Below, in pieces: positions 11,294 to 13,712 of a stretch of DNA of 64,000 bases. The notes below the pieces were generated by a model. The model worked only from the letters and a program-made list of their open reading frames with translations, was not told the DNA's origin and did no database searches. The position numbers were made by a program, and so were the translations under genes. How positions within the stretch are numbered: the first letter of the stretch is position 1; each line of letters begins with the position of its first letter. Source of the stretch: Candidatus Oscillochloris fontis (lineage in GTDB: Bacteria; Chloroflexota; Chloroflexia; Chloroflexales; Chloroflexaceae); the NCBI RefSeq assembly GCF_004138135.1, contig NZ_RYFD01000015.1, positions 1-64,000 of the forward strand. Direction: 5' to 3'.

Positions 11294-11914
11294 CTATCCG
11301 ACCAGACTCCCCAAGGCTACTAGCCCAAATGCCAGGATGATCAGCCCAGCCAGCACATTCACCCAACGCAAGACCTGCGGGGTCACGCGGCTGCGCAGCA
11401 GGCTCACCCCACCACTCAGCAACAACCACCAGAGCGCCGAGCCACTAAACACCCCCACCACCAACATGATCCCATCCACATAGCTCGCCACCCCATTCGC
11501 TGCCCCCATCCCCGCAAAAACCGCCGCAAACGAGAGGATCGTCGCCGGATTGGTAATAGTCAGGGCGAAGGTCGAGACATACGCCCCCAGCAGGCCGCGT
11601 GCCCGCGCCTCCGCTGGACGCTCGGCGGGAGCCTCACGCAGAGTACGCACTCCCAAGTAGCAGAGGAAGATCCCGCCCACGAGGCGCGTCCAAAAGCTCA
11701 TGCCCGTGAGCACGTTGGCAACCGTCGTCAAGCCGAGTGCCGCAATTGCCCCATAGATCAGATCGGCGGTTGCCGCACCCATCCCCGACGCAAACCCGGT
11801 AGCGCGGCCATCAGCCAGCGTGCGCCGAATACACAACACCCCAATGGGCCCGACTGGAGCCGCAATCGCAAACCCGATCAGCATCCCGCGCAACAAAAAG
11901 CCCCACTCCAACAT
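11294..11914 (-). CDS. LysE/RhtB-family amino acid exporter
   Basis: A 206-residue membrane protein of about six helices. The N-terminus RGMLIGFAIAAPVGPIGVLC carries the conserved APVGP motif of LysE-type exporters, followed by GFASGMGAATADLIYG. These proteins export basic or other amino acids or related metabolites. The gene is preceded by its own promoter-like sequence, a folded leader and an intrinsic terminator (11936-12077), so expression is probably controlled by attenuation. The substrate is unknown. Confidence 0.88.
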   Translation of the reverse strand: MLEWGFLLRGMLIGFAIAAPVGPIGVLCIRRTLADGRATGFASGMGAATADLIYGAIAALGLTTVANVLTGMSFWTRLVGGIFLCYLGVRTLREAPAERPAEARARGLLGAYVSTFALTITNPATILSFAAVFAGMGAANGVASYVDGIMLVVGVFSGSALWWLLLSGGVSLLRSRVTPQVLRWVNVLAGLIILAFGLVALGSLVG

Positions 11915-11935
11915 AACACCCCTCCTTCAAGGGTA

Positions 11936-11972
11936 AACAAAAACACCCGCCGGGAATAACCCAGCGGGTGTG
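11936..11972 (-). terminator. Intrinsic terminator/attenuator in the lysE leader
   Basis: On the minus strand ACACCCGCtGGG pairs with CCCgGCGGGTGT around a TTATT loop, directly followed by TTTTTGTTT. It lies about 20 bases before the exporter start and downstream of its promoter, so it would block the gene unless antitermination occurs. Confidence 0.8.
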
Positions 11973-12077
11973 AGATCAGCGAAATGCACCGCGTCAGATC
12001 GCCCTACCTCCCAACCACTGGGAGCGGCGCTGCTGCTGGCAATTGCTGATCATGACATGTCGCATGGCGCAGAGTAT
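11973..12077 (-). promoter_or_regulatory. Structured 5' leader of the LysE-family gene (riboswitch or leader-peptide attenuator)
   Basis: A -10 like TATACT lies at 12077-12072 (minus). The following leader has GATCAGC (12051-12045) that can pair perfectly with GCTGATC (11981-11975), enclosing about 63 bases with an internal hairpin CTCCCA-GTGGT-TGGGAG flanked by CGCC/GGCG. The terminator follows directly. The region also reads as a possible leader peptide, MISNCQQQRRSQWLGGRAI, from an ATG at 12053, but no good ribosome binding site is seen. I see no T-box GGTGG-ACCGCG motif and do not recognise a known riboswitch class. Confidence 0.5.
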
Positions 12078-12086
12078 AGCATACTT

Positions 12087-12848
12087 CTAGGAACTAAAGC
12101 GCACCTCGTAGGTCGTATTGGTCGCATCCGCATTAAACACCACCAGATAGTAGTGCGACCAATCGTCATCATACACGCCACACGTGTTGGCATCCAAACT
12201 ACTACAGATCAGCCGCCCATCCTCGCGGTAGAGCAATGCCGCACTACTGCTCGATGCACTACGAAAGATCAGCCGCCGTTGCTTCACATCAGTACTTGTA
12301 TTATTGATACGGTAGAGTTGCGCTGCGTTGGCTGCCAGCGGCACCCCCACAAGATTGAGGCTATCAAAGGTGCTCTGCATGGATTGATTGATCAGCAGAG
12401 TGAAGAGCGCAGCACTCCCTGGATACTCCATGCTCACCTGTACCTCAGCACTACTCTGCGGGGTACAGATCGCCATGCCACTTGATTCGAGACTATTGAT
12501 CAGGTTGCTGCCCCCTGATCCGGTTGGGCAACCAACACTGATCCGAGGAAATGCATTGAGAGAGAAGGGAGCGACCTGAATCGCCCCCACCAATAGCGTG
12601 CTACCACTCGTTATACTGAGCCGATACTGGCCACCCTCTTCGCTACTCAGCCCCACTTGGCCAGGATTCAGACTCTCAGCCGTCGCAACATCACGCTCCC
12701 GCGTATGGATCTCTACCTGAGAGATACTGTTGCCCAACTGCTTTATGTCTTGGAACAGATCAGCATTGGGTGATGGTGGGCCACTACCTGAACACCCCCA
12801 TAAGAAACCGAGCATACCGACAAGGAGCATACGTTGAATGCGGTGCAT
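12087..12848 (-). CDS. Putative lipoprotein, paralogue of the next upstream gene
   Basis: A 253-residue protein from the ATG at 12848. Residues 1-19 are a lipoprotein signal peptide with lipobox LWGC (Cys19) followed by SGSGPPSPN. The mature part has no domain I recognise. It shares a C-terminal pattern with the neighbouring 12874-13641 protein: LLYR-DG-L-C, a TC or TCG pair, YD, YYLVV-N and a final TY-V-F. Both also share a central FDSL segment and a pair of cysteines. They are probably tandem duplicates of a secreted beta-rich protein. Confidence 0.7.
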   Translation of the reverse strand: MHRIQRMLLVGMLGFLWGCSGSGPPSPNADLFQDIKQLGNSISQVEIHTRERDVATAESLNPGQVGLSSEEGGQYRLSITSGSTLLVGAIQVAPFSLNAFPRISVGCPTGSGGSNLINSLESSGMAICTPQSSAEVQVSMEYPGSAALFTLLINQSMQSTFDSLNLVGVPLAANAAQLYRINNTSTDVKQRRLIFRSASSSSAALLYREDGRLICSSLDANTCGVYDDDWSHYYLVVFNADATNTTYEVRFSS

Positions 12849-12873
12849 AGCAACTGCCCTTCGAGAAACAACC

Positions 12874-13641
12874 CTAGGGTTGTACAAAGTCCACACCATA
12901 GGTATAACTGATATCGCCAGTATTCAGCACAACCAAGTAATAGTCGAAATAGTCCCCATTCTGATCATAGGTCTGGCAGGTCTGAGGTGCCAGAGTGCCA
13001 CACATCAGGCTCCCATCTGAACGATAGAGCAACGCGGCCGCCCGATAGCTGAGCGAAGGCGTGAAGACGAGGTTGCGTTGAGTGAGCGAGTTGTCGCTAT
13101 TCGACATGAAGAAAGTCTGGATATGACGTGGCGCAGAATAGAGATTCTCAAAGAGTAGACTATCAAAGGTTGTAGCGATTGAGGAGTCTAAGCGATGGAC
13201 AAAGAGCGCATAGCTTACCGCCGATTCGCTACGACTCGTCCCTTTCAGGGAGATGGTCACGGTCACATCAGAGCCGGTACTCGATGCGGGGCGACAGTAG
13301 ATAGCCTGACTATTCTGGGCCGTTATGGTCTGGGTGGTGCTCAGCATTGGGCAGGTGACTGCCACTTCAGGCGGAGCCGCTGCACCTGCTGGAACCTGAA
13401 TGGCATCCACATTGATCGCCCCAACGATAATCTGTTTACCACTCGGAACCACTACCGTATACGTAAGCACCGTATTCAGATCAATATCGCCCTTCACAAC
13501 CCAACCGAGACGCAGATTTGGTTCGTAGACAGCGCTAGGTTGCGCTGCAACACCATTCGGAATAATAACAGCAAGCGCCAAGAGCAGCAGCACGATACTC
13601 CCACGTAACCAGGGTTTGAGACTAGAAAGTTGAGACATCAT
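12874..13641 (-). CDS. Secreted protein of unknown function, paralogue of 12087-12848
   Basis: A 255-residue protein starting at the ATGATG at 13641, behind GGGG. A signal peptide (hydrophobic run IVLLLLALAVIIPNG ending GVAA-QP) points to export without a lipid anchor. The mature sequence is rich in Ser, Thr and Val, as in beta-sandwich domains, and ends in the same LLYRSDGSLMC...TC..YD...YYLVVLN...YTYGVDF pattern as its downstream neighbour 25 bp away. The pair is probably cotranscribed. No function can be assigned. Confidence 0.7.
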   Translation of the reverse strand: MMSQLSSLKPWLRGSIVLLLLALAVIIPNGVAAQPSAVYEPNLRLGWVVKGDIDLNTVLTYTVVVPSGKQIIVGAINVDAIQVPAGAAAPPEVAVTCPMLSTTQTITAQNSQAIYCRPASSTGSDVTVTISLKGTSRSESAVSYALFVHRLDSSIATTFDSLLFENLYSAPRHIQTFFMSNSDNSLTQRNLVFTPSLSYRAAALLYRSDGSLMCGTLAPQTCQTYDQNGDYFDYYLVVLNTGDISYTYGVDFVQP

Positions 13642-13712
13642 CGTACCCCTTTCGTTCGTATCCGTGACTACCAATATGGTCGCTGCTATTGTAGCATCTC
13701 GGTAGTACCATA

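Follow-up and report, generated by a model that had tools for sequence, protein, structure and literature searches.

Results

Organization of the region upstream of lysE

The window, which is the whole stretch of 64,000 nucleotides that was analysed, carries on its minus strand a LysE/RhtB-family transporter gene (lysE) preceded by a leader that is read from position 12065 to 11935. Downstream of the end of the preceding gene (12087), we find in this order an extended -10-like box, an ATG, an ORF of 23 codons, its TGA stop codon (11996-11994), an intrinsic terminator, the Shine-Dalgarno sequence and lysE, with 22 nt between the TGA and the terminator (Table 1). The preceding gene is codirectional with lysE and ends about 115 nt ahead of the terminator. 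Two adjoining, similar-looking ORFs of about 270 aa each lie upstream of the leader on the minus strand (12087-12899 and 12874-13674), and neither has a Pfam or NCBIfam match. A scan with the consensus -35/-10 elements found no promoter at the leader; the TGC-TATACT box is a prediction.

The PF01810 domain of the lysE product places it in the LysE family. It scored under every cut-off of the curated NCBIfam models for named substrates, and a comparison of solved structures with the LysE profile gave no match.

Table 1. Features of the leader and of lysE in the window.
Feature	Position	Strand	Remarks
Extended -10-like box TGC-TATACT	12073..12081	-	Exactly 7 nt ahead of leader ATG; predicted; identical spacing in L022, L023 and L025
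Leader ORF MRHVMISNCQQQRRSQWLGGRAI, 23 codons, apparently leaderless	11994..12065	-	Frame and C-terminal half kept in three other species of the genus; Gln-rich counterparts phylum-wide
Putative regulatory codons CAG-CAG-CAG (Gln 10-12)	12030..12038	-	Last stall positions that leave the antiterminator free (0.7-0.8; one codon later 0.2)
Inner hairpin CTCCCA-GTGGT-TGGGAG, competitor of antiterminator	12008..12024	-	87.5% of cells paired, four species
Antiterminator strand CCCAGTGG, codons Ser-Gln-Trp	12015..12022	-	Partner 11967-11960 when ribosome is at QQQ; 90.6% of cells paired, four species
Antiterminator partner CCGCTGGG, portion of terminator 5' arm	11960..11967	-	Pairing computed at QQQ stall
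Intrinsic terminator ACACCCGCTGGG-TTATT-CCCGGCGGGTGT	11943..11971	-	12 pairs; -24.4 kcal/mol
U-rich tail TTTTGTTT after terminator	11942-11935	-	Read from sequence
Shine-Dalgarno sequence AAGGAGG of lysE	11921..11927	-	Read directly
LysE/RhtB-family transporter gene lysE	11294..11914	-	PF01810, E 5.6e-24

Folding of the leader and its conservation within the genus

The leader strand folds better than its shuffled versions (z -3.3), and so does its complement (z -3.3), so that folding energy alone decides nothing. The earlier note had described a strong terminator just before the start of lysE, an internal hairpin and a closing helix of GATCAGC with GCTGATC. The terminator is indeed present, is followed by a U-rich tail and exceeds shuffle expectation, and the internal hairpin is likewise present and is kept in four species of the genus. 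The closing helix can form in the window (12051-12045 with 11980-11974), and is not conserved: in three relatives of the same genus only its invariant CAG/CTG part is left, 60.7% of the cells are paired, and 387 of 500 shuffles were as good. The note had also reported a short frame with clustered Gln and Arg codons. This frame exists, and it probably begins four codons earlier, with the ATG that follows TATACT by 7 nt. The note had overlooked both the antiterminator and the fact that the ORF is conserved as a peptide.

The leader is present at lysE in four of the six genomes of the genus. Its peptide follows the pattern QQQRR, three to four variable residues, GG, one residue, A, I or V, and stop, and in all four leaders TATACT or TATAAT lies at the same distance from the ATG, while the upstream neighbour genes vary. 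Covariation of the antiterminator helix (CCCAGTGG:CCGCTGGG) and of the inner hairpin is not significant with four sequences. When the RNA downstream of a ribosome placed on the second Gln codon was folded, the long antiterminator helix formed in 4/4 genus leaders. The two other genomes, G001 and G004 (L024 and L026), contain lysE and lack the leader; judging from these sequences, leader control appears to have been lost or replaced there.

Gln-rich leaders of lysE genes throughout the Chloroflexota

The LysE orthologues came from three sources: the order itself, named GTDB genomes and a set of 400 Chloroflexota genomes. Many are preceded by a short ORF with QQ, QQQ, QQQQ or QRQQ that ends shortly before a terminator, as in L179 (QNQQVNQPDWRSG), L204 (AQQQQINQLLWRSG), L218 (QQQQSQRLYRSG) and L208 (QQQSQPKKRSG). 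When all loci of the LysE subfamily with a terminator at most ~130 nt upstream were counted without choosing, a Gln-pair ORF ending at the terminator was found at 31 of 41 loci, some of them mutually related, against 0.75 expected from shuffles. Gln makes up 14.2% of the leader residues, compared with 3.3% in six genes of the window, and both of its codons are used (CAG 119, CAA 47); Arg is also enriched (11.7%). A few LysE leaders carry Lys in place of Gln, and in one genus the leader of the lone lysE is rich in Lys (L067, L068 and L070). In L041, about 300 nt with extra inverted repeats separate the leader and terminator from lysE, as if by an insertion.

Across the phylum, the leader peptides share no motif beyond the Gln tract and the pairing codons, and the GGxA[IV] C-terminus is kept only within the genus. 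Nor is there a conserved unpaired RNA core; the Gln codons, the antiterminator strand and the terminator are the only conserved elements. Among 80 fetched loci, those from outside the Chloroflexota showed no Gln leader, although terminators may have been missed there. Weak DNA matches (L005-L020) were rejected as leaders, being coding sequence or chance CAG repeats, none with an ORF and a terminator.

The position of the ribosome determines the computed fold

To follow the switch, the transcript was cut before the 3' arm of the terminator, and the upstream pairing of the 5' arm was computed for each ribosome position. This pairing averaged 0.71 with Gln in the A site and 0.32 at least three codons past the tract (42/43 leaders). 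The Gln frequency is 28-45% in the six codons ahead of the drop and near zero after it, a difference that is partly conditioned, because the drop point was searched from the start of the tract. The leaders for the codon-position and arm-swap analyses were picked by eye for Gln; the count of 31 in 41 loci is the unbiased one. The Arg pair of the window comes only after the drop, which makes Gln the better candidate there. Of the clustered Gln and Arg codons to which the note had pointed, the Gln tract is the more likely sensor, since it occupies the computed stall positions that free the antiterminator and is common phylum-wide; the Arg codons of the window were rejected in this role.

The common antiterminator is GGTCTGG (codons R-S-G), which pairs with CCAGACC in the terminator. 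In this helix 94% of the cells are paired and three pairs changed on both sides, which none of 500 shuffles equalled; the terminator stem also covaries strongly (21 leaders). In leaders that lack the common arm, pairing is stronger with the leader's own arm (-14.8 kcal/mol) than with swapped arms (-12.6 kcal/mol; 1 in 20,000 permutations), a difference to which GC content could contribute. A comparison of LysE leaders, as proposed in the earlier note, supports the conservation of the terminator and the antiterminator and, within the genus, of the inner hairpin; within the genus it speaks against the closing helix. At equilibrium, the terminator wins in the full free RNA of nearly all leaders. 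The switch must therefore be kinetic and take place during transcription, as in known attenuators.

Related leaders with Lys or Arg codons

A covariance model built from LysE leaders only was run over 301 Chloroflexota genomes. Its full-length matches at other genes lie before homocitrate synthase/homoaconitase, LysW and argC. The homocitrate synthase/homoaconitase leaders have Lys codons, both in the window's own genome (G000:C98, MPIAISKQVKRVKKPAHRSG) and in several Chloroflexales (KQSKRAKKPDERSG). Single and weaker loci are the Lys-rich LysW leader (L292) and the argC leader with Arg codons (L296, FPRRPRPPRTTG). LysE leaders and lysine-synthesis leaders are sharply distinct in their Gln and Lys counts, with a p-value that is too small owing to related sequences. 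The Lys and Arg tracts occupy the same permissive positions as the Gln tract, and one genome (G044) has both kinds, a Lys-rich leader for lysine synthesis and a Gln-rich one for LysE. The codon tract thus tracks the gene that follows (Lys, Arg or Gln), which is the pattern expected of tRNA sensing, with the gene on when the codon is slow. A strict DNA-pattern search for other leader-bearing genes gave mostly chance matches and lexA-like starts; the covariance model did better.

Three further observations concern these regions. Between the terminator of the lysine leader and homocitrate synthase there is another short conserved ORF, which includes YTPRxCRPELFGSCQ and has no relation to the leader peptide (about 500-620 in L302, and the same place in L290, L291, L293, L295, L297, L298, L304, L305 and L309); it may be a small protein or a further control element. 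In L303 (G005:C40, about 370-480), a leader-like ORF (VQQNKLHRQRRQQPAIGPG) and a terminator precede a phosphatase-like gene and argJ; its codons are mixed Arg and Gln and its assignment to arginine is uncertain. Finally, lysE directly follows the gene for the homoaconitase large subunit in six genomes of a related family (L035, L040, L044, L045, L046 and L057), one of which has a Lys-codon leader ahead of the operon (L307). This arrangement appears to link the LysE subfamily to lysine synthesis.

Discussion

The leader of lysE in the window is most probably a ribosome-mediated transcription attenuator in which slow decoding of Gln codons turns lysE on. This reading rests on the ORF, on two folds that exclude each other, on where the Gln codons lie, on the recurrence in the phylum and on the Lys and Arg versions of the module. 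Computation finds what marks an attenuator: an ORF with clustered codons (predicted to be translated), a terminator before the gene and an antiterminator freed by stalling. RNA polymerase would start at or beside the leader ATG, and a ribosome would load on the presumably translated, leaderless ORF. When Gln codons are read fast, the ribosome would cover the Ser-Gln-Trp region; with the antiterminator strand occupied, the terminator would form and lysE would be off. If Gln-tRNA is scarce, the ribosome would wait in the cell at CAG-CAG-CAG and hold the inner hairpin open, and the freed CCCAGUGG would pair with the emerging 5' arm of the terminator, which would be blocked so that lysE is transcribed. 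Charged Gln-tRNA would accordingly be the signal. That read-through rises at shortage of the cognate aminoacyl-tRNA is suggested indirectly by the sequences of the Lys and Arg sister leaders.

The attenuator account is weakest in that induction by shortage is odd for a member of an 'exporter' family. For an exporter, an arrest peptide would be the better fit: a nascent chain that has bound a small molecule (the transporter substrate or an antibiotic) would halt the ribosome, either within the Gln/Arg stretch or on reaching the stop codon, and the same RNA switch would turn the transporter on when this molecule is in excess. The GGxA[IV] C-terminus kept within the genus agrees with this, but phylum-wide there is no such common motif, related leaders have Lys or Arg in place of Gln according to the gene that follows, and the antiterminator of the window is not freed by a ribosome that has reached the stop codon; we regard an arrest peptide as improbable. 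It is also unlikely, if slightly easier to entertain, that a real attenuator senses general slowing of ribosomes, or Gln jointly with Lys and Arg, and not Gln alone. The enrichment of Arg points that way, as do the mixed Lys, Arg and Gln codons of L067, L068 and L070 and the Lys and Asn codons of L097, which has no Gln. Against it, the Arg pair of the window comes after the switch point and Gln is what the loci of the unbiased set have in common.

The earlier note had left the choice between a riboswitch and leader-peptide control, and the evidence favours the latter. That the leader binds a metabolite directly and that the ORF is accidental would suit the stable fold and the terminator, but the closing helix is unconserved, a conserved unpaired core is absent phylum-wide and the complement folds equally well. 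In agreement with the note, which recognised no known class, the Rfam search for riboswitches gave no match in the whole window nor at 12 leader loci (E up to 1). A riboswitch is therefore very improbable. We give equally little credence to an ordinary terminator of the upstream gene next to a chance short ORF. The codirectional gene ending so close by would suit it, but in relatives the genes upstream of the module are different or divergent ones and the Gln-pair ORFs far exceed the shuffle expectation. That the terminator serves upstream transcripts only, which the note had named as grounds for refutation, is unlikely for the same recurrence of the module, with its own -10-like box, beside differing neighbours.

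Classical amino-acid attenuators are listed for the trp, his, leu, thr, ilv and phe (pheA) operons (PMC1183508). The window leader shares with them a run of codons for a single amino acid in the leader ORF, competing hairpins, an intrinsic terminator and activation by stalling. It differs in its Gln codons, in controlling a transporter rather than the synthesis of the sensed amino acid, in its apparently leaderless ORF and in its occurrence in the Chloroflexota, and only the terminator and one antiterminator helix are clear. In Actinobacteria, leader peptides are described for trp, ilv (ilvB), leuS and, as candidates, cys, and no conserved element was reported at lysine or arginine operons (PMC1262725); these leaders resemble ours in having a short ORF with codon runs outside the Proteobacteria, and differ in the amino acids. 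In 2010, leader peptides were known only from Proteobacteria and Actinobacteria, to which the Firmicutes were added (PMC2965389). T-boxes, of Gln or other specificity (PMC2494555), also let tRNA charging control transcription antitermination, but they bind tRNA directly and need no translation, and the Rfam T-box models (core and specifier loop) had no match in the window or at the 12 leader loci. A published Gln attenuator or leader peptide of the Chloroflexota was not found in the open-access literature. The mechanism of ribosome-mediated attenuation is known; judged by that literature, its Gln version and its occurrence in the Chloroflexota appear to be new, and no Rfam family corresponds to the leader.

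In Salmonella, the amino acid sensed by the codons of the mgtL leader differs from what the controlled gene handles; this gene, mgtA, encodes a transporter. The codons of the speF leader of Salmonella are likewise reported to sense an amino acid other than that of the controlled gene (PMC6386406), and in this both leaders resemble the window leader. The termination or arrest mechanisms of both differ from that of the window leader, and no sequence relation is shown.

We lean towards a phylum-wide modular family of attenuators that reuses a single antiterminator/terminator module (the R-S-G codons GGTCTGG close to the end of the leader, and CCAGACC in the terminator) with exchangeable tracts: Gln at the LysE-type transporter, Lys at lysine synthesis and Arg at argC. 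Through Gln-tRNA made by transamidation, the version with Gln would respond to glutamine (nitrogen) status, with the transporter on under Gln shortage. In the window genome no glnS was found above cut-off and a gatB is present, and according to a published survey the Chloroflexi are without Gln-tRNA ligase (PMC2494555). Gln-tRNA should therefore depend on glutamine as amide donor, and the leader may read nitrogen status via glutamine.

If the attenuator is real, Gln would join the amino acids with classical attenuators in the literature searched, which are Trp, His, Leu, Ile/Val, Thr and Phe, with Cys as a candidate. Since Gln-tRNA should be made in these bacteria by amidation of Glu-tRNA, what such a leader reads would be free glutamine, which signals nitrogen. 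Its sister leaders with Lys and Arg yield predicted regulons and also serve as an internal standard for which way the switch works. With a shortage-induced 'exporter' that in one related family lies in a lysine operon, the substrate and direction of the LysE subfamily become a testable question.
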